Shown piece after piece: positions 1 through 12,285 of a stretch of 12,968 nucleotides of DNA. Both the position numbers and the translations under genes were made by a program. The DNA is from Tateyamaria sp. (lineage in GTDB: Bacteria > Pseudomonadota > Alphaproteobacteria > Rhodobacterales > Rhodobacteraceae), in NCBI GenBank assembly GCA_018668195.1, contig JABITU010000064.1:1-12968 (forward strand). The letters run 5' to 3'. The notes under the pieces are model-generated. The model made no database searches, had not been told where the DNA came from, and saw only the letters and a list, made by a program, of their open reading frames with translations. The first letter of the stretch is position 1; each line of letters begins with the position of its first letter.

Positions 1-89
1 GTTTTATCTATATATCTTGTTGTCGTAAGTATATCCGAATGATGAATGGATTACGGCCGTTCGCTGAACTGTGCATGGATGTCTGCTAT

Positions 90-432: not shown

Positions 433-1182
433 ATGTGTATCGTCGTAACGGGCGCAGCGAAGGGGATCGGCGCAGCCGTCTCGCGCCGTCTGTCTGATGA
501 CGGCGCATCCTTGGTGCTCGTTGATTCCGATGAGGAAGCGCTTCGCGATACCGCAGCGGCACTGCCCGGATCGCCAGTTTGCATTGTTGGCTCAGTTGCA
601 GAAGAAGCAACCGCGGAACACGCCGCTGCTGCGGCTGCCGACCTGGGTGGCGCAACCGGGTTCACACACAATGCAGGTATTCAGCGCTATGGATCAGCGG
701 CGGAGACCACTCCTAATCTTTGGGACGAAGTTATAGGCGTCAATTTAAGCGGCGCGTATTTGATGGCGCGGGCGCTCTTGCCGCAACTGGTGGAAAGCCG
801 TGGTCCCTGCGTGTTTATGGCTTCGGTTCAGGGGTTGGCGACACAGCAAAATGTTGCCGCCTATACCGCGTCTAAACATGGTCTGATCGGGCTGGCGAAA
901 TCTATAGCAGTCGATTTTGCGGCTGCGGGAGTGCGCTCAAATGCTGTGGCACCCGGTTCGGTCAAAACGCCGATGCTGGATTGGGCTGTCAATCTGGCTG
1001 ACGATCCCAATGCAGTGTGGGCCGAAATTAATAGTATGCACCCGCTTGGACGCGCAGCAGAGGCGAGCGAAGTCGCCGAAGTCGTGGCCTTCTTGCTGTC
1101 AGACAATGCATCGTTCATCACCGGTGAAGTTATCAAGGTCGATGGTGGATTGATGACGCGTATTGGGGGGTCACCGAAATGA
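433..1182 (+). CDS. Short-chain dehydrogenase, probable NAD-dependent sugar dehydrogenase
   Basis: This is a classical short-chain dehydrogenase/reductase of 249 residues. The cofactor loop TGAAKGIG is at residues 6-13, Asp31 at the end of the second strand favours NAD over NADP, and the catalytic set is Ser131, Tyr144 and Lys148 in YTASK. The family oxidises alcohols, including free sugars to their lactones. I chose ATG 433 over the in-frame GTG at 421 because GGAGG at 423-427 sits five bases before it and the fold begins at once. It opens an operon with a lactonase and a sugar-acid dehydratase, so oxidation of an aldose at C1 is the likely job, as in L-fucose dehydrogenase. The family call is firm; the substrate is inferred from context only. 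Confidence 0.9.
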   Translation: MCIVVTGAAKGIGAAVSRRLSDDGASLVLVDSDEEALRDTAAALPGSPVCIVGSVAEEATAEHAAAAAADLGGATGFTHNAGIQRYGSAAETTPNLWDEVIGVNLSGAYLMARALLPQLVESRGPCVFMASVQGLATQQNVAAYTASKHGLIGLAKSIAVDFAAAGVRSNAVAPGSVKTPMLDWAVNLADDPNAVWAEINSMHPLGRAAEASEVAEVVAFLLSDNASFITGEVIKVDGGLMTRIGGSPK

Positions 1183-1195
1183 AAGGTCAGAATTC

Positions 1196-2431
1196 GTGAC
1201 GATTGCCGACATCAAAGTGACGACTGTTGCCGTCCCACTAGAGGCGCCGCTCAGGCATTCCGCGGGCGCGCATTGGGGTCGCTTTATCCGCACCATTATC
1301 GAAGTGGTCGGCGATGACGGCCTGTCCGGTTGGGGCGAACTGGGTGGTGGCGGTGATAGTGCCGAGGGCGCCGTTATGTCATTGCTGCCTTATCTAAAGG
1401 GGCATGACCCGCTGAACCTAGAGCAGCTACGCTGGAAGATTATGAACCCGACCGCGACCCTGTATAACAACAGGTTGCAATTGCATGCAGCCATAGAAAT
1501 GGCTTGCCTGGATCTTGCAGGCAAGCGGCTGGGTGTTCCGGCCCATGCGCTGCTGGGCGGTGCGATCCGGACTTCGGTCGAATTCGTGTCCTATCTGTTT
1601 TATCGCTATGAGGCTGATGGCGTGGGCGGCGAAACGATGCCAGACGAAATCGTGGCCCATGCAAGGGCGCTGCGCGATGAGCACGGGTTTCGCACGCATA
1701 AATTGAAAGGCGGCCACTTCGCCCCGGACCATGATGTAGAGGTTTTTACCGCATTAGCCGATGCCTTTCCGCAGGACCGTGTACGCCTTGACCCTAACGG
1801 CGTGTGGTCTGTCGAAGAAGCGATCCGCGTCGGACGCGCGATTGCCCCCCTCAACAACGATTATTTCGAAGATCCTACGTGGGGTTTGGACGGGATGCGG
1901 CGTGCCCGTGACGGCCAGCCGATCCCGACGGCCACAAACATGGTCGTTGTGAATTTTGAACAGCTTGCTCAGTGTATTCGTCACGATCTTGTCGATGTCA
2001 TCCTGCTGGACACCACGTTCTGGGGCGGGCTCCGGCAGTCTGTAAAAGCGGGTCATGTTCTTGAGACGTTCCAACGCTCTGCAGCTGTCCATTCGTCGGG
2101 TGAGTTGGGCATCCAACTGGCGTCAATGCTGCACCTGGGTGCGATCCTGCCAAACCTGAATTTCGCCGCCGATGCGCATTATCACCACCTCAAGGATGAT
2201 ATTCTTGAAGGTGGCAAAATGACCTACAAGAATGGCCATATCGATGTGCCAACAGGCCCCGGATTGGGGGTCGAGGTCAGCCGCGAGAAGCTGGCGCAAT
2301 ATGCTGAATATTTCCGCGAGACAGGCGGCTACACCTATGACCGCGACCCTGCGCGGCCTGAATGGTATTCGATCTGGCCGGAACGAAACTACGCTGATCC
2401 TAAAGTCAAAACCGTTCCGGAGTTGTTCTAA
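1196..2431 (+). CDS. Enolase-superfamily sugar-acid dehydratase, glucarate dehydratase subgroup
   Basis: This 411-residue protein belongs to the enolase superfamily, which removes water from sugar acids to give 2-keto-3-deoxy acids using Mg2+. The barrel residues are visible in order: Lys169 and Lys171 (KLK), metal ligands Asp199 (LDPNG), Glu225 (FEDP) and Asn248 (ATNM), then the Asp272/His299 dyad (LLDTTFWGG and VHSSGE). Asn as third metal ligand and the 27-residue dyad spacing are hallmarks of the glucarate dehydratase subgroup, whereas fuconate and rhamnonate dehydratases use Glu. The start is probably GTG 1196 with AAAGG at 1182-1186; a TTG at 1163 would overlap the previous gene and add 11 unconserved residues. 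The TAA stop shares one base with the ATG of the ATPase gene. The substrate is unknown. Confidence 0.9.
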   Translation: MTIADIKVTTVAVPLEAPLRHSAGAHWGRFIRTIIEVVGDDGLSGWGELGGGGDSAEGAVMSLLPYLKGHDPLNLEQLRWKIMNPTATLYNNRLQLHAAIEMACLDLAGKRLGVPAHALLGGAIRTSVEFVSYLFYRYEADGVGGETMPDEIVAHARALRDEHGFRTHKLKGGHFAPDHDVEVFTALADAFPQDRVRLDPNGVWSVEEAIRVGRAIAPLNNDYFEDPTWGLDGMRRARDGQPIPTATNMVVVNFEQLAQCIRHDLVDVILLDTTFWGGLRQSVKAGHVLETFQRSAAVHSSGELGIQLASMLHLGAILPNLNFAADAHYHHLKDDILEGGKMTYKNGHIDVPTGPGLGVEVSREKLAQYAEYFRETGGYTYDRDPARPEWYSIWPERNYADPKVKTVPELF

Positions 2432-3534
2432 TGGCCGACGTGAAAGTACGGGAATTGGTAAAAGTTTACGGTCGCCAACTGGCTGTACGGGGCATTGACC
2501 TTGATATCCCTGACGGCGCATTTGTGGTGCTGGTGGGGCCGTCGGGTTGCGGCAAATCAACGACGTTGCGCATGATTGCGGGGCTCGAAAACATTTCCCA
2601 CGGTGAGCTTCTGATCAATGGCAAGCGTGCCAATGATCTGCCATCGCGTGATCGTGGCGTGGCGATGGTGTTCCAGACCTACGCACTTTATCCGCATTTG
2701 ACCGTTAAGGAAAACCTCGCGTTTTCGCTGAAGCTGGCAAAGGTCGATCCGGCCGACATGGACCGCCGGATTGATGGCGCGATCGAGGCGTTGGAACTAC
2801 AACCCTATCTGGACCGCCGCCCGTTTGAACTGTCGGGTGGGCAACGCCAGAGGGTAGCAATGGGGCGTGCAATTGTCCGCGAACCTGATGTTTTCCTGTT
2901 CGACGAACCCCTGTCCAATCTGGACGCCAAGCTGCGCAACCAGATGCGGGTTGAGATCAAACGCTTGCAACATCGCTTGGGTGTCACGACCATCTATGTA
3001 ACCCACGACCAGATCGAGGCGATGACACTGGCCGACGTGATTGTCGTGATGAAAGACGGCGAGATTGCACAACAGGGCACGCCACTTGAGGTATTTGAGA
3101 GCCCTGCCAACAAGTTCGTCGCAAGCTTTATCGGATCGCCACAGATCAATTTCTTTGACGGCGTGATCAAACAGAACGGCGAAAATTTTGCCTTCGTCAC
3201 TCCTGAAATTACCATCCCGCTGGACGCTGCAAGCTACGGCGGGGCCTTGACCGACGGGCAGCGTGTGACCGGCGGGCTTCGACCGGAGGACATTATTCCC
3301 CAAGGCCATGGCATGAAGCCCGATGGAGAAATTTCAATCAGGGGAGAAATCACCCTGACCGAGCTTCTGGGCAATGAAAGCCTGCTATTCGCGCGGTGCG
3401 GATCGGTCGATTTCGTCGCGCGGATGCAACAGCCGCGCATTGTGGCCGATGGCGAAAACCTCAGATTTCATATCGCGGGATCACGGCTGCATTTGTTCGA
3501 TGCGGATACGGAGGTCTCGCTCAGAACGACCTAA
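2431..3534 (+). CDS. Sugar ABC transporter ATP-binding protein (MalK/UgpC type)
   Basis: This 367-residue ATPase powers the sugar importer encoded by the next three genes. Walker A GPSGCGKST is at residues 36-44, the Q-loop follows in VFQTYALYPHLTV, the signature LSGGQ starts at residue 134, Walker B ends in Asp158-Glu159, and the switch histidine lies in VTHDQ. The last ~130 residues form the TOBE/OB regulatory domain typical of the MalK/UgpC group (GGLRPEDI), which marks a CUT1 carbohydrate transporter. The ATG overlaps the preceding stop by one base, suggesting translational coupling. The length and all motifs are normal for the family. Confidence 0.96.
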   Translation: MADVKVRELVKVYGRQLAVRGIDLDIPDGAFVVLVGPSGCGKSTTLRMIAGLENISHGELLINGKRANDLPSRDRGVAMVFQTYALYPHLTVKENLAFSLKLAKVDPADMDRRIDGAIEALELQPYLDRRPFELSGGQRQRVAMGRAIVREPDVFLFDEPLSNLDAKLRNQMRVEIKRLQHRLGVTTIYVTHDQIEAMTLADVIVVMKDGEIAQQGTPLEVFESPANKFVASFIGSPQINFFDGVIKQNGENFAFVTPEITIPLDAASYGGALTDGQRVTGGLRPEDIIPQGHGMKPDGEISIRGEITLTELLGNESLLFARCGSVDFVARMQQPRIVADGENLRFHIAGSRLHLFDADTEVSLRTT

Positions 3535-3562
3535 AGAAACGATTAAACAAGGAGGAAGACAA

Positions 3563-4792
3563 ATGAAGATCAAAGAGAAATTATTAGGAACTGCGGTGGG
3601 CGTTATGCTTGCTGCGGCGCCCGCTTTTGCGCAGGAAGTCCAGTTATTTCACGACAAAGGCTTCTGGTCTGAGCAACTTCAGTCCGTCGGGGATGCTGCG
3701 GCAGAGACAACTGGTGTCACCATCACGGAAACACCTTACGCCAACGCGGAGCAGTATAAGGCCTTTGTGCAGGCCTCTATTGCGTCTGGTGAAACTCCGG
3801 ACATGTTTACGTGGTGGACCGGCGCAACCTTTGCAGAGCTTGTGAGCAGCGGTCAGATTGCGCCACTGGATGATCTTTGGGACGAGATGATCAACTCTGG
3901 CGGTTATGGCGAGGCTTCTAAAGAGCTGTTCGTCGTAGATGGTCAGACTTATGCGGTCCCGCTTCTTCTGGCCCGCTGGGTCGTGCTTTACAATAAGCCG
4001 CTCTATGCAGAGCTGGGTTTGGAAGAACCAAAAACCTGGGACGAACTGATGTCCAATGCGGACGCGATTGTGGCCGCCGGAGAAACGCCTTTTCTTGCGA
4101 CGGTCCATGAGGGCTGGCGCGGCTTTATCTGGTTCCAAGAGTTGATGTTGCGCATGCATCCCGAAGCCTACAACGGTTTGAACGACGGCTCCGTCGCTTA
4201 TGACGGACAGGAAGTGCGCGCTGTGTTCGAGGCTTGGTCAGATATGTACGCGAAGGGTTATTTCTCTGATCCGCGGTCCACAGAAGAATTCAACGACTAT
4301 GTACGGGGCGCAGGTGCCATGTACTTGATCGGTGAATGGGCCGCAGGACTGGTTGTCCAAGCAGGTGTTCCGGCTGACGATCTAGGTGTGTTCATCATGC
4401 CGAATGCCATTGATGACGCACCCGCAGCTGTGATCGTCGAAGGATCGCCACTCGTGGTATCTGTTGACGGTGCTCAGGACGAAAACGTAATGAAAGCGTT
4501 GCGTTTCTGGGTGTCTGATGAGGGCGCAAACGCATGGGGTGACGCGACCGGAAACTATATCGGGAACAATTCGGCCGAAGCCCCGAATGCAATCGTTGCA
4601 GAAGTAAATGCGGATATCGCTGAGACAAGCGCGACGGCTTATCTGCGCTGGTGGGAAGCTGTCCCACCGGATCTTCAGGGTGAACTGGTCGCGGAAATGA
4701 ACCGCTTTATGCTCGATCCGACAATGAAAACTGCAGACGACGTCATGGCGACGATGCAAACCCTCAATGCCGCCTACTGGGCTGACCAGTAA
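3563..4792 (+). CDS. ABC transporter sugar-binding protein (CUT1 family)
   Basis: This 409-residue periplasmic protein binds the sugar and delivers it to the permeases. A Sec signal peptide occupies residues 1-23: lysines at 2, 4 and 6, a hydrophobic core, and an AFA cleavage site before Gln24. There is no lipobox. The rest reads as a family 1 extracellular solute-binding protein of the MalE/UgpB class (PDMFTWWTGATFAELV, YAVPLLLARWVVLYNKPLY, AGAMYLIGEWAAG). The start ATG 3563 has a strong GGAGGA at 3551-3556; the open frame extends upstream into the ATPase gene, but the signal peptide fixes this start. CUT1 binding proteins generally take mono- or oligosaccharides, glycosides or polyols, so the ligand may be a glycoside of the sugar metabolised here. 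Confidence 0.95.
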   Translation: MKIKEKLLGTAVGVMLAAAPAFAQEVQLFHDKGFWSEQLQSVGDAAAETTGVTITETPYANAEQYKAFVQASIASGETPDMFTWWTGATFAELVSSGQIAPLDDLWDEMINSGGYGEASKELFVVDGQTYAVPLLLARWVVLYNKPLYAELGLEEPKTWDELMSNADAIVAAGETPFLATVHEGWRGFIWFQELMLRMHPEAYNGLNDGSVAYDGQEVRAVFEAWSDMYAKGYFSDPRSTEEFNDYVRGAGAMYLIGEWAAGLVVQAGVPADDLGVFIMPNAIDDAPAAVIVEGSPLVVSVDGAQDENVMKALRFWVSDEGANAWGDATGNYIGNNSAEAPNAIVAEVNADIAETSATAYLRWWEAVPPDLQGELVAEMNRFMLDPTMKTADDVMATMQTLNAAYWADQ

Positions 4793-4809
4793 TTAAGGAT
4801 TTTTAAAAC

Positions 4810-5760
4810 ATGGACCGCGCCGCCAAAGACAAAGCACTGCTTGACCGGATTGGGATTGATCAGATCGCCCGAAACGCACGTGCTCGGCGGCGCGGCCAGC
4901 TTGGATTGGCGCTTGTTTTCATGTCCCCTGCCCTAATTCTGGTAGTGGGCGTGTTGCTGGTGCCTGTCTTGTTCAATATCTGGCTCAGCTTTACAAAATG
5001 GAAGAAATTTACAGGCTTTGGCGAATATGCCGGATTTGCGAATTACGAACGCATGCCCGGCAATCCGTTCTTCAACGAGGCTCTGATTAATACCGCAATC
5101 TGGGTCGGTGCTTCGGTTGTGTTTCCAATCGCGCTGGGGCTTGGCATGGCCATGTTCTTTCGCAACCTACGCGGTGCTGAGACCTTCAAGAACATTATTT
5201 TTATTCCGCGTATTCTGGCGCCCACGGCGGTCGGCGTCTTGTGGTTTTACGTATACGCACCCGATGGCCTTTTGAACCGTGGTCTTGGGCTTGTCTCGGG
5301 CCGCGATGTCGACATTGGCTGGCTGTATAGCGATGCCACAGTCACCCCCGCAATCATTGCAACATTCGTGTGGCAAACCGCTGGCCTTGTCATGGTGTTG
5401 CTGTTGCTTGGCCTGGCCGCGATCCCGAAGGATCCGATTGAGGCCGCCCATATTGATGGTGCAAACCGCTGGCAGATTTTCCGCTACATTACCCTGCCGC
5501 TGCTGATGCCAACCTTATTGATGGTCACTATTCTATCGGTCTTGGCTGGTTTCACGGTGTTCGATCTGCTTTGGGTGATGGGCGCGAATTACCCCGGTCA
5601 ACGCAGCCTTGCCCTTGCCGTGTTCATGTATTTCGAGGCGTTCCAGAAAGGCAGCTGGGCCTTCGGCTCTGCGGTTGCGGTTATCATTGGCCTGGTCGTT
5701 TTGTGCGTGACATGGGTTCAAACGGTTCTTCAGGGCCGCGTCGATAGGATGACACGCTAA
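4810..5760 (+). CDS. Sugar ABC transporter permease (MalF-like)
   Basis: This 316-residue inner-membrane permease is one half of the importer channel. After a basic cytoplasmic N-terminus (residues 20-29 rich in Arg) there are about six membrane segments, the first at roughly residues 30-57. The cytoplasmic EAA loop, which docks on the ATPase, is EAAHIDGANRWQIF from residue 211, followed by ITLPLLMP. AAGGA-like Shine-Dalgarno sequence AAGGA lies at 4795-4799, ten bases before ATG 4810. Its stop TAA shares one base with the ATG of the second permease, so the two are probably translated in step. The family assignment is secure; nothing in the sequence identifies the sugar. Confidence 0.95.
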   Translation: MDRAAKDKALLDRIGIDQIARNARARRRGQLGLALVFMSPALILVVGVLLVPVLFNIWLSFTKWKKFTGFGEYAGFANYERMPGNPFFNEALINTAIWVGASVVFPIALGLGMAMFFRNLRGAETFKNIIFIPRILAPTAVGVLWFYVYAPDGLLNRGLGLVSGRDVDIGWLYSDATVTPAIIATFVWQTAGLVMVLLLLGLAAIPKDPIEAAHIDGANRWQIFRYITLPLLMPTLLMVTILSVLAGFTVFDLLWVMGANYPGQRSLALAVFMYFEAFQKGSWAFGSAVAVIIGLVVLCVTWVQTVLQGRVDRMTR

Positions 5761-6641
5761 TGGCATTTGATATCTCAACACTTGATCTTGACGCGATTGA
5801 ACGGCGCGAAGCTGCAAAACACAAAGGCAGCACCTTGAAACTGTTCGCAGCCATCGGGTTCGCATTGCTCTGGATTGTTCCATTCTACTTCCTGGCGATT
5901 TCGATCTTCAAATCGAGCAATGAATATTCGCGCAACCCACCCTTGGCACTGCCCGAAGGGATCGCACCATTGTGGGATAACGTGACCCGCGCATGGGAGC
6001 TGGGGAGCATGGGGCAAGCCATGATGAACTCTGCTTTTTATGGCACTGTCGGGGCATCGCTTGCGGTATTCTTCGCGGCAATGGCGGCCTTTGCCATTAC
6101 GCGCCTTGATATCCCGTTCCGAAATGGCTGGTTCATGCTCATTTTCGCAGGCACTGTCTTTCCGTTTCAGATGTATCTCATTCCGCTTTTCTTCGGCTAT
6201 CAGAAACTGGGTCTGTTGAATTCGCATATGGGAATGCTGTTGTTCTACACCGCAATTTGCGTCCCGTTCCCAACCCTTGTCTTGCGCAATTTTATGTCCG
6301 GCCTGTCGCGTGAAATGGACGAAGCCGCGCGGATGGATGGGGCGAACGAATTTACCGTCTTTTTCCGTATCATTCTGCCCAACACGATCGGGCCAATGAC
6401 GGCAGTTTTCTTGCTGCAATTCACATGGATCTGGAACGACATGCTGTTCTCGACGGTTTTAGGCAACCGCTTGGAAACGCGGTCAATCATGAATGCTTTG
6501 TTGGTCTTCCAAGGCAGCTATTCATCGATTGGGCCGAATATCGTACTGACAGCAGCCCTTCTGGCCTCTCTTCCCAGTATTGTGTTGTTCTTTCTGCTTA
6601 GACGACATTTTATGCAGGGATTGCAGGTTCAACAATCATGA
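5760..6641 (+). CDS. Sugar ABC transporter permease (MalG-like)
   Basis: This 293-residue protein is the second channel subunit of the CUT1 importer. It has a cytoplasmic N-terminus of about 22 residues, roughly six membrane segments, and the EAA loop EAARMDGANEFTVFFRIILP starting at residue 188. As usual for MalG-type subunits, the region after the EAA loop is well conserved (FLLQFTWIWNDMLFS). It overlaps the previous permease by one base and ends 12 bases before the regulator gene. With the ATPase, binding protein and first permease it makes a complete importer. Confidence 0.95.
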   Translation: MAFDISTLDLDAIERREAAKHKGSTLKLFAAIGFALLWIVPFYFLAISIFKSSNEYSRNPPLALPEGIAPLWDNVTRAWELGSMGQAMMNSAFYGTVGASLAVFFAAMAAFAITRLDIPFRNGWFMLIFAGTVFPFQMYLIPLFFGYQKLGLLNSHMGMLLFYTAICVPFPTLVLRNFMSGLSREMDEAARMDGANEFTVFFRIILPNTIGPMTAVFLLQFTWIWNDMLFSTVLGNRLETRSIMNALLVFQGSYSSIGPNIVLTAALLASLPSIVLFFLLRRHFMQGLQVQQS

Positions 6642-6653
6642 AAGGGTCAAAAT

Positions 6654-7373
6654 ATGGCACTTCTCAAAAGCGCAAAGTCTGGCCGCCCGATGCCATTGGC
6701 GCGACAGGTATATGATGAGCTGCACAAGAGAATCCTCAGGTTTGAGCTGAAGCCCTATCAGGTTCTGTCTGAGGCTTCGGTCTCAGAGATGTTGGGGGTC
6801 AGCCGAACCCCGGCCCGTGAAGCGCTTACAAAATTGGCAGAGAACAAATTTGTCGATGTAGTTCCACAGCGTGGGTCGCGGGTGGCACCTTTGCGCCTCG
6901 AGGATCTCGACCGGTCGCAGTTCATGCGCGAGGCCCTAGAAGTTGCATTGCTGCGACGCGCAATGTCTTCGGGCGAAGGGGCTGCTATGGTCAAAGGGCT
7001 GCGCAAGGAAATAACCTTGCAGCGCACATATGTGACATTCGAAGACACCGAGAGCTTTTATGCGTCTGATGAAGCATTTCACGGTCTTATCGCGGAATAT
7101 GCCAAACAGCCAAGCGTTCTGCCCGAAATCTTCCGCCTCAAAGATCACATGGACAGGTTCCGGCATCTGATGGTGTCGGCCGTCGAAGATCTCGACACCA
7201 TTATCAAACAACACATTGCCATAGCCGATGCAATCGAGGCCGGCGACGAGGCGCTGGCCGAAGAACGCATGATCAAACATCTACGCCGCATTTTTGATTA
7301 CATCGATGAAGCTCGCGACAAGTTCCCTGATTATTTTGAACAAAGCGCAGAACACGCTAGGGCCGCAAGATGA
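6654..7373 (+). CDS. GntR-family transcriptional regulator, FCD (FadR) subfamily
   Basis: This 239-residue regulator has an N-terminal winged helix (residues ~15-80, including SEMLGVSRTPAREAL) and a C-terminal FCD ligand-binding domain. The FCD metal site is complete: Asp139 and His143 (SDEAFH), His187 (QHIAIADAI) and His209 (IKHLRRI). FCD proteins with this site commonly sense organic or sugar acids through a bound metal. The gene sits inside the operon between the importer and the lactonase, has an AAAGGG binding site at 6641-6646, and overlaps the lactonase gene by four bases. It therefore probably controls its own operon and is released by a pathway intermediate. The palindrome at 370-405 is the candidate target; that link is inference. 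Confidence 0.92.
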   Translation: MALLKSAKSGRPMPLARQVYDELHKRILRFELKPYQVLSEASVSEMLGVSRTPAREALTKLAENKFVDVVPQRGSRVAPLRLEDLDRSQFMREALEVALLRRAMSSGEGAAMVKGLRKEITLQRTYVTFEDTESFYASDEAFHGLIAEYAKQPSVLPEIFRLKDHMDRFRHLMVSAVEDLDTIIKQHIAIADAIEAGDEALAEERMIKHLRRIFDYIDEARDKFPDYFEQSAEHARAAR

Positions 7374-8239
7374 ACATCCGCGTCCTCGGAGACTTGCGCG
7401 ATGGCGTTGGCGAAAGCCCCTTTTGGAATCCGTGCGATGGTAAGGTTTGGTCAGTAGATATCACTGGTAGGGCGCTCATTGCCCGCGATCTTGCGAGCGG
7501 TAAGACTGCAAATTTTGCAACTGACGATCTACCGACTGCACTTGCACTCGACCTGGTTGGGGGGGCGATTGTTTCCTTCGCCCAAGGGGTGGCGCGGTGG
7601 CACGACGGAAAAACTGGTCCGCTGATCCAAGCCGAAACCAATCCTGTGATGCGGTTGAACGAAGGGGCCTGTGATCCATCAGGGCGGATGTGGGTCGCGA
7701 GTATGGAAAACAATCTGAGTGACGATCTGCAGCCCCGCGAACAGGCGCGCGCATGCGGGCGGTTGTTTCGGATTGACGCGAAGGGTGCGGTGCCAATGAC
7801 CGAACCCGAATTTGGAATACCGAACACGATGGTCTGGTCGCCTGAACGCGACAGGTTCTACCTTGGCGATAGCCTGCGTAATACGATCTGGGTTTGGGAC
7901 TATGACGATACGATGGGTGAGATTTCCAACCGCCGCGTCCATGTCTCTGGTGGGCCTGGCGTCCCGGATGGGTCCTGTGTGGATGCAGAAGGGTTTTTGT
8001 GGACCGCGCGGTTTGGCGCAGGGCGCGTGATCCGATATGATCCAAACGGAAAACCGGACCGTGAAATCATTGTGCCCGCGCAAAATCCGACGGCCACCAC
8101 GTTTGCAGGATCGGATTTGTCCACCTTGATTGTTACATCGGCGCGTTTCGGGATGGAAAATCCGGAGGATGCGGACGGGGCGATGATAGCACTCGATACG
8201 GATGTGATCGGGAAGCCCAAAAATCGGTTTGTCCAATGA
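7370..8239 (+). CDS. SMP-30/gluconolactonase-family lactonase
   Basis: This 289-residue protein is a six-bladed beta-propeller lactonase of the SMP-30/gluconolaconase/LRE family, which opens sugar lactones to sugar acids with a bound divalent metal. The expected metal ligands are present: Glu15 (GVGESPFW), Asn152 (IPNTMVWS) and Asp200 (PDGSCVDAEG); Asn97 (RLNEGACDPSGR) matches the substrate-binding asparagine. There is no signal peptide, so it acts in the cytoplasm, between the C1 dehydrogenase and the dehydratase. The ATG overlaps the regulator stop by four bases (ATGA) and its own stop overlaps the next gene in the same way. The length is normal for the family. The lactone itself cannot be named. 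Confidence 0.93.
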   Translation: MNIRVLGDLRDGVGESPFWNPCDGKVWSVDITGRALIARDLASGKTANFATDDLPTALALDLVGGAIVSFAQGVARWHDGKTGPLIQAETNPVMRLNEGACDPSGRMWVASMENNLSDDLQPREQARACGRLFRIDAKGAVPMTEPEFGIPNTMVWSPERDRFYLGDSLRNTIWVWDYDDTMGEISNRRVHVSGGPGVPDGSCVDAEGFLWTARFGAGRVIRYDPNGKPDREIIVPAQNPTATTFAGSDLSTLIVTSARFGMENPEDADGAMIALDTDVIGKPKNRFVQ

Positions 8240-8961
8240 CGGCCGATTTTGAAACGCGATGTGCTGCCTTGGTGGTCGAGCTTGGGCTCGGTCATGCTGA
8301 TGACATCCGATCAATAGAGCCGCTGACCGGCGGGGTTGCCTCGGATATCGGCAAGGTGGTGTTGGCCGACAGGACGATCTGCATCAAGTTTGCACTGCCC
8401 AAACTGAAAGTCGCGGAGGATTGGCACGCGCCGATCCTGTATTCACCGAAGATGACGAAACTCGACTGGGAGGTTGAGTTGGGGATCGTGATCGGCAAGC
8501 GGGCGCTGAACATCACTAAAGCCGACGCGCTTGATCACATTCTGGGCTTTACCGTCGTCAATGACCTGTCGGAACGTGCCTGGCAATTGGAACGTGGCGG
8601 GCAGTGGGCGAAGGGCAAAAGCTTTCCAAACTTCAGTCCCACCGGTCCATGGATTGTCACGCCCGACGAGGTTGGCGATGCTGCCGCTTTGCCCATGTGG
8701 CTTGACGTGAATGGTGGGCGGATGCAGACCGGAAACACCAAGACGATGATCTTCGATCCCGCGACAATCGTCAGTTACCTGTCAGAATTCATGGTGCTGA
8801 AACCGGGCGATTTGATTTGTACAGGCACGCCTCCTGGCGTCGGCGCGGGGATGAATCCCCCCCAATTCCTCAGCATTGGCGACACGGTGAGCCTCGGGAT
8901 CGAAGGGCTTGGGACACAAAGCAAGACTGTCGTTGTGTTGGAGGGGTCATCATGGACCTGA
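8236..8961 (+). CDS. Chimeric protein: phosphotransferase-like N-terminus joined to an FAH-family core
   Basis: The 241 residues fall into two unrelated parts. Residues 1 to about 66 (LTGGVASDIGKVV, ICIKFALPKLKVAEDWHAP) read as the start of an aminoglycoside/choline-kinase-type phosphotransferase, covering only its nucleotide-binding N-lobe. From about residue 68 onward it is a fumarylacetoacetate hydrolase-family core, with metal ligands Glu79 and Glu81 (DWEVELG) and Asp110 (VVNDLSER) at the same 2- and 29-residue spacing as in FAHD1, then KGKSFPNF, GPWIVT and the C-terminal TGTPPGVG. FAH proteins of this group are about 280 residues and start with a beta-domain and a GLNYxxHxxE motif; both are missing. 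In this operon an FAH enzyme would cleave a 2,4-diketo-3-deoxy acid to pyruvate and a small acid. Whether the fusion still works is unclear. Confidence 0.8.
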   Translation: MTADFETRCAALVVELGLGHADDIRSIEPLTGGVASDIGKVVLADRTICIKFALPKLKVAEDWHAPILYSPKMTKLDWEVELGIVIGKRALNITKADALDHILGFTVVNDLSERAWQLERGGQWAKGKSFPNFSPTGPWIVTPDEVGDAAALPMWLDVNGGRMQTGNTKTMIFDPATIVSYLSEFMVLKPGDLICTGTPPGVGAGMNPPQFLSIGDTVSLGIEGLGTQSKTVVVLEGSSWT

Positions 8962-9698
8962 ACCAACGCCTGAAAGGAAAAACCGCCGTCGTGACCGCAG
9001 CCGGCCAAGGGATCGGGCGGGCAATCGCGGAACGATTGCTGGCCGAAGGCGCGCAGGTTTACGCATCCGATTTGAATGCGGATCTACTGTCTGACTTCAA
9101 AGGCGCGCACACCACAGGTCTGGACGCGGCGCATGCTTTTGATGTGACCGAGTACTTTGACACGTTCGATAAGATTGACGTTCTGGTCCACGGGGTTGGC
9201 TATGTGCACCAAGGCACGATCGAGGAATGTGGTCTTGAGGATTGGCGCCGGTCTTGTGCCATCACTTTGGACAGTGCCTTTTTGGTCTTGAGTGCAGGTA
9301 TACCGAAAATGAAAGCACAAGGCGGCAGTATCATCACCATTGGATCGGTTGCCAGTTCTATCAAAGGCTTTCCAAAGCGGGCGGCGTATTGCGCGACCAA
9401 AGGCGGTGTGTTGGGCTTGACGAAATCAGTGGCCTCCGATTATTTGCCCTTTGGGATTCGGTGCAATTCCATATGCCCTGGCACCGTTGACAGCCCCAGC
9501 TTGCAAGATCGCATCGCAGAATTGGCCGACCAGATGGGCAGTCACGACGCCGCGATGAAATTCTTCATCGACCGACAGCCCGCAGGGCGTTTTGGCAAAC
9601 CGGACGAGATAGCAGGCCTTTGCGCCTTCCTCGCCTCGGAAGATGGTGCGTTTGTGACGGGTCAGGCCATCAACATTGACGGTGGCATTACGATTTGA
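8952..9698 (+). CDS. Short-chain dehydrogenase resembling 2-keto-3-deoxy-L-fuconate dehydrogenase
   Basis: This 248-residue SDR has the cofactor loop TAAGQGIG at residues 15-22, an Asp after the second strand (YASDLN) suggesting NAD, and Ser132, Tyr146 and Lys150 as catalytic residues (YCATK). The Ala in place of the first loop Gly, the VASSIKG segment, CPGTVDSPSLQDRI and the C-terminal INIDGG match the DHRS6/BDH2-like group that includes 2-keto-3-deoxy-L-fuconate dehydrogenase. That enzyme makes the 2,4-diketo acid that an FAH-family hydrolase cleaves, and an FAH gene lies immediately upstream. ATG 8952 is preceded by GAGGGG at 8941-8946 and overlaps the FAH gene by ten bases. The substrate assignment rests on similarity plus context. 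Confidence 0.9.
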   Translation: MDLNQRLKGKTAVVTAAGQGIGRAIAERLLAEGAQVYASDLNADLLSDFKGAHTTGLDAAHAFDVTEYFDTFDKIDVLVHGVGYVHQGTIEECGLEDWRRSCAITLDSAFLVLSAGIPKMKAQGGSIITIGSVASSIKGFPKRAAYCATKGGVLGLTKSVASDYLPFGIRCNSICPGTVDSPSLQDRIAELADQMGSHDAAMKFFIDRQPAGRFGKPDEIAGLCAFLASEDGAFVTGQAINIDGGITI

Positions 9699-10714
9699 CC
9701 GATACGGTTTGGACATTTGATTGGGGGAGTGTTCGCGGCGAAGTTGCCGCACTTGGCGGGATGCTTGGCCCTGTTTGGTTCACGCTTTCGGGCGGTCATA
9801 TCGTGCAGCCCTTTGCCGTCGCGCCCTGGGCCGATGATCCACCAGAAAAACTAAACGTGCTGTCACCCATTTTGCGGCAACTGCGCGGAGAGTTCCCCTG
9901 CGTGCCGTTCGGCGTCGCCCATGCGCGAACAGACTTGCCAGATCGATGGATGGACGGCCTTGATCTTTCAATCCCGCCCGCAGATGAATTTGCCCATGGG
10001 TATAGCGCAAATCATGAATGGCACCTCCTGAAACAAACAGACACCACCATCACGATCGGCATCGACTATCCTGAAGACCATGTCGTAAGTCGCCTAAAGC
10101 GGCGTATTTCGCAGGACGGTGATCTGCAGATTAAGATTGATCTACACATTGAAATACGGCGTGGTGCTGCGCTGCCGATCGGGCTGCATCCGATTTTTGC
10201 ATTACCCGTTAATTTGGGGGCCGCGCACCTGAGTATTCCGTCGCTGCAGAGCGCACGATCATTTCCGGTTCCCGTGGATGAAGTGTCGCAATGCATGCCC
10301 GATGAGACCGCCTATACCTTAACGCAGATACGGACAAAAGACGGAGCGATGCTGGACGTCACGCGACTTCCACTTGCGATCCAAACAGAGGAACTATTGG
10401 CCGTTTCGCTGACGGATGGTGATGTGCGCTTGTCAGACACGCAAAATGGCTATGCCGTCGATCTTTCGTGGGATATCGCAACGTTTCCCCAGTGCTTGCT
10501 GTGGCTTTCAAATCGGGGTCGCAAGGCCTATCCGTGGTGCGGTCGGTTTTGCGCCATCGGCATTGAACCGGTTGCGGCGTCCTTTGATCTGGGTGTCACG
10601 CACTCCGCTAATCGTCATGCGCCATTCGCAAGATCTGGAACAGCAACCCAAACGCCGCTTTCTGCCCGTGAACCATTCACCACAAGCTATTCAATCGCGG
10701 TGTGTCACCTTTGA
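9695..10714 (+). CDS. Aldose 1-epimerase (sugar mutarotase) family protein
   Basis: This 339-residue protein belongs to the galactose mutarotase-like fold, which interconverts alpha and beta anomers so that the dehydrogenase receives the right form. Candidate catalytic residues are His101 (AHGYSANHEW), His165 (GLHPIFALP) and Glu291 (GIEPVAASFDLG), in the usual order and spacing. The apparent start is TTG 9695, overlapping the SDR stop as TTGA. Only weak Shine-Dalgarno-like GGTGG (9680-9684) precedes it, so translation probably depends on the upstream gene. The first in-frame ATG falls 22 codons later and would remove conserved strand residues. It is the last gene of the operon. No signal peptide is present. 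Confidence 0.85.
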   Translation: MTDTVWTFDWGSVRGEVAALGGMLGPVWFTLSGGHIVQPFAVAPWADDPPEKLNVLSPILRQLRGEFPCVPFGVAHARTDLPDRWMDGLDLSIPPADEFAHGYSANHEWHLLKQTDTTITIGIDYPEDHVVSRLKRRISQDGDLQIKIDLHIEIRRGAALPIGLHPIFALPVNLGAAHLSIPSLQSARSFPVPVDEVSQCMPDETAYTLTQIRTKDGAMLDVTRLPLAIQTEELLAVSLTDGDVRLSDTQNGYAVDLSWDIATFPQCLLWLSNRGRKAYPWCGRFCAIGIEPVAASFDLGVTHSANRHAPFARSGTATQTPLSAREPFTTSYSIAVCHL

Positions 10715-10900
10715 TTATGTCGAGCCGAAAACCGCGCGTTCGCCATCATTTACGTCGCCCAGCGGTTCAACAGTCTGCGGGGAACCAAAAGCTGCCACGG
10801 GGGAGAGGCGCCTGGCTGATCTTCAGATCAGCAAAGATCACGGGATAGCATCACTACGAGTGCGGCCAACGGGGTCATCTTTTTTTAGAGAGGATACAAA
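10715..10900. other. 186-bp gap between the sugar operon and the hydroxylase gene
   Basis: No supported gene lies here. A 43-codon open frame starts at ATG 10717 and a longer frame runs through from inside the epimerase gene, but neither shows a domain or a convincing binding site. The gap contains one clean hairpin at 10815-10832 and ends with a T-rich run (10877-10885) just before the binding site of the hydroxylase gene. Confidence 0.5.
10815..10832. promoter_or_regulatory. Short perfect inverted repeat in the gap after the operon
   Basis: GCTGATC and GATCAGC flank the four bases TTCA, giving a 7-bp stem. It is followed by AAAGATCACGGG rather than a T-tract, so it is not a standard intrinsic terminator. 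It could mark the operon end through Rho or RNA processing, or be an operator for the hydroxylase gene. Confidence 0.3.
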
Positions 10901-11887
10901 ATGGACGATTCAAAATGGGGATCAGAAGATCGTCGCGGATATTGGAAACCCAACAAGCCGCTGACCTATCCCAACGTTTTTGTATGGCCGCTGAGCCTGA
11001 GTGGTATTCGCAGTTGGCTGCCCCAATATCTATTCCCTTGGACGATCGTCTACGCAGGCCTTTCGGTTGTTGTTTTCCTGTATCTCACCCCGTCCGCCGC
11101 TCGGATGCAAACACTGAGCATGGATTGGGTGTTGCTTATCTTGTTGCGCAATTATGCGCTTCATATCGCGGTGGTCGGCCTGCTGCACGTGTGGCTTTAC
11201 ACCCGTCAATCCCAAGGAACGGCGTTCAAATATAACCGCCGCTGGCCGCAATCGCACAACCCGATTTTTACCTTCAACAGCCAGACGCGTGATAATGTGT
11301 TCTGGTCACTTGTCAGCGGCGTGCCCATCTGGACAGCGTGGGAATGTCTGGCTTGGTGGCTATATGCCAACGGTTATGTCGCGCAGCTTGGCATTTCGGA
11401 ACACCCAGTTTGGTTTGTTTTGTTATGGCTGTTGGTGCCGTTGCTGCACGAATTCCACTTTTATTGCGTGCACCGGTTGATCCATGTTCCCTGGCTTTAT
11501 AAGCGCGTTCACTATTTGCACCACCGCAATATTAACCCCGGTCCGTGGTCAGGACTTTCGATGCATCCGTTTGAGCATCTACTCTATTTTTCAGGCTATT
11601 TGGTCTATTTTATTCTACCGGCTCATCCGTTGCATTTCATGAACGTGGGGCTTCTTGCGGGGCTGTCGCCGGCGCAGGGGCACACCGGTTTTGACCGTGT
11701 TGTGGCAGGCGAGGATAAATCGGTCGGGCTGTCCTACTACGCGCATTATCTGCACCACAGGTATTTTGAGGTAAACTATGCCGATGGTTCAATCCCGCTG
11801 GATAGATGGTTTGGGACGTTTCACGATGGCAGTCCTAAAGCTGATGAGGCTCTTAAACTGCGCCGCTCGAAACTATTGGGAAGGTAA
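10901..11887 (+). CDS. Fatty acid hydroxylase/sterol desaturase-family membrane enzyme
   Basis: This 328-residue integral membrane protein has the histidine clusters that hold the di-iron centre of this superfamily: His183, His186 and His191 (HEFHFYCVH), His204, His207 and His208 (HYLHH), His222 and His226 (HPFEH), His261, and His282, His285 and His286 (HYLHH). About four hydrophobic segments are visible, near residues 43-64, 76-99, 131-155 and 165-182, before the cytoplasmic catalytic region. The family uses O2 to hydroxylate or desaturate lipids; the lipid here is unknown. ATG 10901 has GAGAGGA about seven bases upstream. The 186-bp gap and different theme suggest its own transcription unit rather than part of the sugar pathway. 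Confidence 0.93.
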   Translation: MDDSKWGSEDRRGYWKPNKPLTYPNVFVWPLSLSGIRSWLPQYLFPWTIVYAGLSVVVFLYLTPSAARMQTLSMDWVLLILLRNYALHIAVVGLLHVWLYTRQSQGTAFKYNRRWPQSHNPIFTFNSQTRDNVFWSLVSGVPIWTAWECLAWWLYANGYVAQLGISEHPVWFVLLWLLVPLLHEFHFYCVHRLIHVPWLYKRVHYLHHRNINPGPWSGLSMHPFEHLLYFSGYLVYFILPAHPLHFMNVGLLAGLSPAQGHTGFDRVVAGEDKSVGLSYYAHYLHHRYFEVNYADGSIPLDRWFGTFHDGSPKADEALKLRRSKLLGR

Positions 11888-11919
11888 TCTGCACATCCGA
11901 ACAGTGAAAGCGTGCAGAT
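11887..11919 (+). terminator. Hairpin after the hydroxylase gene, weak terminator candidate
   Basis: ATCTGCAC at 11887-11894, overlapping the end of the stop codon, is repeated as its exact complement GTGCAGAT at 11912-11919 with a 17-base loop. Only a broken T-run (TTATTT) follows. It may terminate the hydroxylase transcript, but the long loop and poor T-tract make this uncertain. Confidence 0.3.
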
Positions 11920-12162: not shown

Positions 12163-12285
12163 TCAAATCTCGATCTTCTCAGCGATGCTTAGGGCATCCT
12201 CAACCTCGACGCCCAAATAGCGCACCGCGCTATCGATCTTTGTGTGGCGAAGGAACACTCGTTCCGCTGGCAAACTTCGGGTTTG
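12163..12285 (-). pseudogene. C-terminal remnant of a tyrosine recombinase/integrase
   Basis: Read on the minus strand, the last 40 codons before the TGA at 12163-12165 give a peptide containing FLRHTKIDSAVRYLGVEVED. In intact phage-type integrases of alphaproteobacteria the C-terminus reads like LLGHTKxxSTVRYLGVxVEDAL. The conserved His (RHTK) and the nucleophilic Tyr (VRYLG) are therefore still visible. Upstream in this frame the similarity stops and the sequence becomes basic and unstructured. The other catalytic residues and all N-terminal domains are absent, so it cannot be active. It is a scar of an integrated element. Confidence 0.75.

Follow-up and report, generated by a model that had tools for sequence, protein, structure and literature searches.

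A fused kinase-hydrolase reading frame in Tateyamaria sp. as the probable scar of a deletion in a tightly packed operon

The stretch of Tateyamaria sp. DNA analysed here (12,968 nucleotides, referred to as the window) contains a single open reading frame (ORF) at positions 8236-8961 of the forward strand that starts with ATG and encodes 241 amino acids. A preliminary description, made from the letters alone, had recognised in this ORF an in-frame chimera between the start of a phosphotransferase and a truncated FAH-family hydrolase, and had offered two origins for it: a deletion between neighbouring kinase and FAH genes, or a fusion selected for a new role. We wanted to know which of these origins applies. 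With a probability of roughly 0.8, we regard the ORF as a deletion scar: some 2.45 kb would have been lost spontaneously, by way of short direct repeats, from a tightly packed, putative sugar-acid breakdown operon, and the product of the fused frame is probably non-functional.

The two parts of the fused reading frame

Residues 1-66 of the fusion correspond to residues 1-67 of a 334-amino-acid APH kinase of Flavimaricola marinus (locus L029), with 87% identity by tblastn. The full-length kinase of this relative matches the Pfam model APH (PF01636, E = 2.1e-19). When searched alone, residues 1-66 of the fusion matched no Pfam or NCBIfam model, and neither this segment nor the whole fusion gave an APH match in Pfam at E ≤ 1. 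The motif HGD, which we take to be the kinase catalytic loop of the APH fold and which is located at residues 197-199 in the F. marinus kinase and in a second fusion protein (P0012, see below), does not occur in the window ORF.

The second part is recognised by the Pfam model FAA_hydrolase (PF01557) at fusion residues 65-233 (E = 1.3e-58; 198.6 bits compared to a gathering score of 23.9), though along profile positions 47-214 of 214 only, so that the start of the profile is missing from the fusion. The acidic residues E79, E81 and D110, presumably the metal ligands of the FAH core, are retained and equal residues 124, 126 and 155 of the intact FAH, the surrounding motifs EVELG and NDLSER being located at positions 79 and 109 of the fusion and 124 and 154 of the intact protein. 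Deleted from the fusion is the motif GLNYSDHAAE, residues 77-86 of the intact FAH. The H-x-x-E spacing of this motif fits the His-Glu dyad His30-Glu33 given for FAHD1 in the relevant part of the published account (PMC8398924), an equivalence based on motif spacing and not on a structural alignment.

These results agree with the preliminary description in the phosphotransferase-like nature of residues 1-66, the FAH core with its Glu79/Glu81/Asp110 triad and the loss of both GLNYxxHxxE and the kinase catalytic loop; the switch, which had been placed at 8428-8445, was found close by, at about 8426-8433. We also considered that residues 1-66 are merely a divergent FAH N-terminus. This is ruled out by their 87% identity to a separate APH gene and by the FAH match, which starts at FAH residue 109. 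A structure model of the fusion was poor (mean pLDDT 63.5, with residues 1-62 and also residues 113-132 of the FAH part below 50) and serves as weak support; it represents a partial FAH core with 8gsr as best Foldseek match (TM 0.64 by query). As far as the sequence can be read, the chimera is confirmed as real.

The preliminary description had further pointed to the possibility of a clade of full-length FAH proteins with the same N-terminus. There was none: among the 120 matches listed, only P0001, P0002 and P0012 cover the whole query, all three share the N-terminus of the fusion and end their kinase part at the same or at other joins, and none of them is a full-length FAH.

The intact operon and the joins found in its place

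In F. marinus, the source genes are separate and collinear within an almost gapless operon consisting of SGL lactonase, APH kinase, enolase-like protein (437 aa), FAH (286 aa), SDR and an ORF of 339 amino acids, and the gene order of a second relative (L027) is identical. Separate APH and FAH genes, for which the preliminary description had suggested searching related strains, are thus present in both. In F. marinus, SGL and APH as well as enolase-like and FAH genes overlap by ATGA, FAH and SDR by 10 bases and SDR and the next ORF by TTGA; only a few bases separate the APH from the enolase-like gene. In the alignment, window 2880-8432 corresponds to L029 1-5553 (86%) and window 8428-11891 to L029 8004-11466 (91%), and the difference between the two offsets corresponds to 2455 bp that are missing from the window. 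Lost in comparison to F. marinus are the kinase from codon ~66 onwards, the entire enolase-like gene and FAH codons 1-108 including GLNYxxHxxE. The join carries a short direct repeat of 5 bp, as judged on the F. marinus locus as a proxy for the intact DNA of the species itself. The deletion envisaged in the preliminary description is therefore seen directly against intact relatives; its assumption that the two genes are direct neighbours did not hold, as the enolase-like gene lies between them and was lost as well. The features of the window are listed in Table 1. The last ORF of the operon (339 aa; window 9695-10714) is conserved with L027-L029 and has no significant Pfam match.

Table 1 Features of the window around the fused reading frame, with strand and supporting evidence.
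Feature	Position	Strand	Evidence or remark
Enolase-superfamily sugar-acid dehydratase-like gene, same cluster, open	1163..2431	+	Glucarate dehydratase best NCBIfam match, 167.5 bits, below cut-off of 828.7
Regulator gene, same cluster, open	6654..7373	+	ORF only; GntR-like by eye
SGL/gluconolactonase-like gene, open	7370..8239	+	PF08450, E = 2e-64; stop overlaps fusion ATG
5' remnant of APH-family kinase gene, start of N-lobe, without catalytic loop	8236..8430	+	Residues 1 to ~65; DNA 86% identical to L029 up to 8432
GAGGATTGGC, left copy of 10-bp direct repeat, jump point of G001 C169	8416..8425	+	Longest direct repeat between 8236-8436 and 8437-9698
Deletion join	8426..8433	+	5 bp (8428-8432) match both flanks in L029; 2455 bp absent relative to L029
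3' remnant of FAH-family hydrolase gene, codons 109-286 of 286	8428..8961	+	Triad kept, HxxE lost
SDR dehydrogenase gene, open, 248 aa	8952..9698	+	PF13561 for 8961-9698; overlaps end of fusion ORF by 10 bases
Right copy of 10-bp direct repeat, within SDR gene	9237..9246	+	Direct-repeat comparison

The enolase-like gene accompanies the kinase in 68 of 79 locus rows with an APH match; these rows represent several families, include some places fetched twice and, among the other 11, some loci that were cut short. A protein search gave 588 matches, of which 120 were listed, with intact ones reaching up to 84%. The closest intact APH among the matches listed is that of F. marinus, which shares ~85% identity with the species' own kinase. 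No intact copy from the species itself turned up among the matches listed in these word-limited searches, which does not prove its absence. The third protein search returned 2 proteins from 13 candidates and missed the fusions P0002 and P0121, both within its size range; the list of fusions is therefore incomplete. Viral contigs yielded no relative, and a plasmid search produced 173 records, all at 60-80% identity and none spanning 80% of the query in one place.

Besides the join of the window, which was recovered from another source with one changed residue (P0001, V41A), five further in-frame joins were found in the same segment. Contig C169 of genome G001 has one mismatch to the window across 8341 bp and jumps at GAGGATTGGC from window 8425 to the SDR gene at 9237, thereby keeping the frame as an APH::SDR fusion. 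Three joins were seen at the protein level: P0002 (261 aa) is APH up to residue 61 and FAH from about residue 85-86, P0012 (292 aa) is APH up to the HGD motif and FAH from about residue 192, and P0121 (203 aa) is APH up to about residue 185 followed by the final 18 residues of SDR. In the fifth, found in L028 and G492, residues 1-59 of APH are fused in frame to the C-terminus of the enolase-like protein (157 aa), followed by a full-length FAH; the fusion product of G492 is identical to P0240, which is attributed to Yoonia sp. R2331. Six genomes represent the genus of L028, which differs from that of the window: two carry this fusion, another two hold APH and the enolase-like gene as separate frames of full length, and two match only a more distant enolase. 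Yet another, different loss of the kinase-enolase module is found in L034, where only the tail of the enolase-like gene (7249-7665, residues 297-435) precedes a full-length FAH, with an in-frame stop upstream.

Contig C169 has no other close copy among the 24 genomes of the family of G001 that were compared, and the close relatives found are Rhodobacteraceae-type genomes; its presence in G001 may reflect mis-binning or horizontal transfer. At their left ends, the window (1-84) and C169 (1-113, L112) diverge within a palindrome-like repeat. A similar repeat occurs in contig C32 of G001 (L012), next to a stretch that matches window 12178-12252 at 80%.

The joins of the window, P0002 and P0012 are mutually exclusive and the Yoonia-type form belongs to a separate lineage, so that the six distinct joins seen would require at least four deletion events from an intact operon. 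We do not claim six fully independent losses, as the G001 join may have arisen from the window allele by a further deletion, and that of P0121 in the same manner from the P0012 allele. Nor do we take in-frame joining as proof of selection: four joins, those of the window, P0002, P0012 and P0121, were noticed as ORFs, and when chance repeats between these genes are counted with a minimum length of 5-8 bp, 41-52% of them are in frame. The only joins found regardless of frame, those of G001 and L028, are both in frame.

The left end of four of the six joins lies within kinase codons 57-66, as would be expected if a fixed break or replication site gave a constant left end and variable right ends. 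When breakpoints were simulated from the repeats present in L029, four of six fell within 30 bp with p = 0.0016-0.13 across 16 settings that varied the repeat length, the frame and the range. Leaving out P0002, which was found by its similarity to the window, reduces this to three of five with p = 0.025-0.30; moreover, the G001 join, with its possible origin from the window allele, is not surely independent, and the microhomologies used differ between the joins. We therefore consider such a site rather unlikely, and both the in-frame bias and the left-breakpoint hot spot are suggestive only.

Activity, selection and origin of the fusion

Since neither the kinase catalytic loop nor the HxxE motif of FAH is present, the fusion product is predicted to be most likely without enzyme activity. 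With regard to selection, the fusion that could be compared across species is the APH::enolase form. Between L028 and G492, it differs by 9 nonsynonymous and 2 synonymous changes (dN/dS 1.56), compared to 25 nonsynonymous and 52 synonymous changes in six neighbouring genes (dN/dS 0 to 0.20; Fisher p = 0.0026). The ratio of 9:2 is compatible with neutral evolution (p = 0.74); the contrast between the enolase part and FAH alone is weaker (8:2 versus 7:11, p = 0.055). This Yoonia-type fusion thus appears to evolve like neutral sequence with no sign of purifying selection, a result that applies to this fusion and not to that of the window. In the window, the FAH remnant deviates at 3 of 93 near-invariant positions, defined by a conservation of 97% or more across 34 intact homologues chosen by us from hits and loci; these homologues themselves range from 0 to 3 deviations, 21 of them having none. 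Two of the three unusual changes (E189K and Q230K) are common to P0002 and P0012 and may therefore predate the deletions. The dN/dS of the remnant is 0.106 between window and L029, only modestly higher than the 0.061 between L029 and L027, and the open SDR gene rises similarly (0.148 versus 0.039), so that these values do not demonstrate decay of the window's own copy, for which the signal is weak. The deletion in the window is probably recent.

These data bear on the suggestion that the fusion was kept for a new role, for instance as a metal-binding FAH core with an N-terminal docking tail. The ORF is open and in frame, the metal-ligand residues are kept, and the dN/dS of the FAH part to L029 still resembles that of constrained sequence. 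Such a role is hard to reconcile, however, with joins that vary even between near-identical sequences and include APH::SDR and APH::enolase versions, with the loss of the HxxE motif, with the low confidence of the structure model for residues 1-62 and with the apparent neutrality of the sole fusion testable across species, and we give it only a very slight chance. A somewhat larger, but still small, chance is left to the idea that the join is an artefact of chimeric reads or of misassembly and that the real genome is intact. Chimeric amplification would likewise give different joins in near-identical DNA, the G001 join lies near the end of its contig, which stops 82 bases past the repeat, and C169 may be mis-binned, given that the 23 other genomes of the G001 family gave either no match or one of at most 42%. 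Artefacts would be expected to occur less often than the intact form, but among the matches listed no intact kinase came closer than the one from F. marinus with its ~85% identity; also, the middle segment is absent from G001 except for one weak match of 75 bp, the P0002 cluster (90% identity) represents 5 contigs from several sources, the longest of 78 kb, and the APH::enolase form is located on contigs of 2.8 and 2.9 Mb in two genomes.

We therefore favour the deletion scar. In the proposed course of events, ~2.45 kb would have been lost between short direct repeats in the operon SGL - APH-like kinase - enolase-like - FAH - SDR - 339-aa ORF, joining kinase codon ~66 in frame to FAH codon ~109 and leaving a product that would lack enzyme activity and be under no selection. 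The fused ORF keeps its start on the SGL stop and its end over the SDR start, and the frame may have been retained because, with these overlaps, an in-frame join would keep translation running into the next gene, so that downstream genes would still be translated. The kinase-enolase module appears to have undergone repeated loss, which may reflect selection or a relaxed need for it, and the fusion does not seem to be a new bifunctional enzyme. A more far-reaching proposal is that marine Rhodobacteraceae-type bacteria experience strong recurrent selection for losing the APH-kinase/enolase-like module, near-clonal cells carrying different in-frame alleles in which the downstream overlapping genes are still translated, possibly with a preferred left breakpoint. 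We hold this proposal as tentative, at clearly less than even odds; if true, in-frame module loss would be a natural counterpart of the parallel catabolic loss seen in laboratory evolution.

Concerning the pathway, the FAH is closest, in NCBIfam as well as in PDB, to 2,4-diketo/didehydro-3-deoxy-rhamnonate hydrolases, with an NCBIfam score below the family cut-off. The products of such an FAH would be pyruvate and a short hydroxy acid, and a kinase together with an enolase could convert a glycerate to phosphoenolpyruvate. The enolase-like protein of L029 (6367-7680) passes the NCBIfam model eno with 453 bits (cut-off 300). In the enolase-like proteins of APH loci (69 loci including some duplicates, each represented by its best match), the position of Glu167 is Asp in all 67 covered cases and that of His369 is Ala in all 34 covered cases, in E. 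coli enolase numbering; where covered, they keep the catalytic Glu and Lys of enolase. The Asp and Ala replacements suggest that the substrate may differ from 2-phosphoglycerate, and our guess is that the protein may be a paralogue of enolase that acts on another substrate and is paired with the APH kinase.

The deletions matter in two respects. The P0002 fusion is named 'fumarylacetoacetate hydrolase family protein' in a source despite the loss of the His from its HxxE motif, so that a pathway reconstruction would credit these bacteria with a step that they probably lack. Besides, a single operon that carries different deletions, two of which lie in nearly the same DNA sequence, offers an unusual natural view of ongoing gene loss, and the set makes the reason for losing the kinase-enolase module testable.

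Comparison with known systems

In a limited literature search, we found no paper on the window's fusion or on an APH-enolase-FAH operon. Among characterised proteins, the fusion resembles L-2,4-diketo-3-deoxyrhamnonate hydrolase (PDB 8gsr/8gst; NCBIfam NF053535), to which its FAH core aligns at residues 70-232 (E = 5.2e-56), but the window copy is devoid of the N-terminal part and the HxxE motif, and even the intact FAH homologue of L029, with 349.7 bits, stays below the family cut-off of 500. The likeness to APH-fold phosphotransferases (PF01636) is that the intact homologue is a protein of this family and the window retains its first ~66 residues; unlike these enzymes, it lacks the HGD loop (residue 197 onwards) and everything else after residue ~66.

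With regard to the deletion itself, RecA-independent recombination between short direct repeats, as described in part of an earlier study (PMC5426353), likewise removes the sequence between the repeats; for the present operon, we infer this mechanism from the 5-10 bp of shared sequence. Repeated loss by deletion is also known from the selection-driven and parallel loss of catabolic genes (PMC3386194) and from long-term experimental evolution of E. coli, in which rbs was deleted (PMC7881107). The rbs deletion described there goes through IS150 recombination (PMC7881107), whereas short direct repeats appear to be involved here and selection is a proposal only. A parallel to the chimeric ORF is ppe38-71 of Mycobacterium tuberculosis, where, according to the relevant part of the source, a multigene deletion joins two genes in frame (PMC7671302). 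In both systems, a deletion results in one in-frame chimeric ORF, but the chimera of M. tuberculosis is reported to be functional (PMC7671302), whereas the operon described here shows several different joins and the product of the window's fusion is probably inactive.
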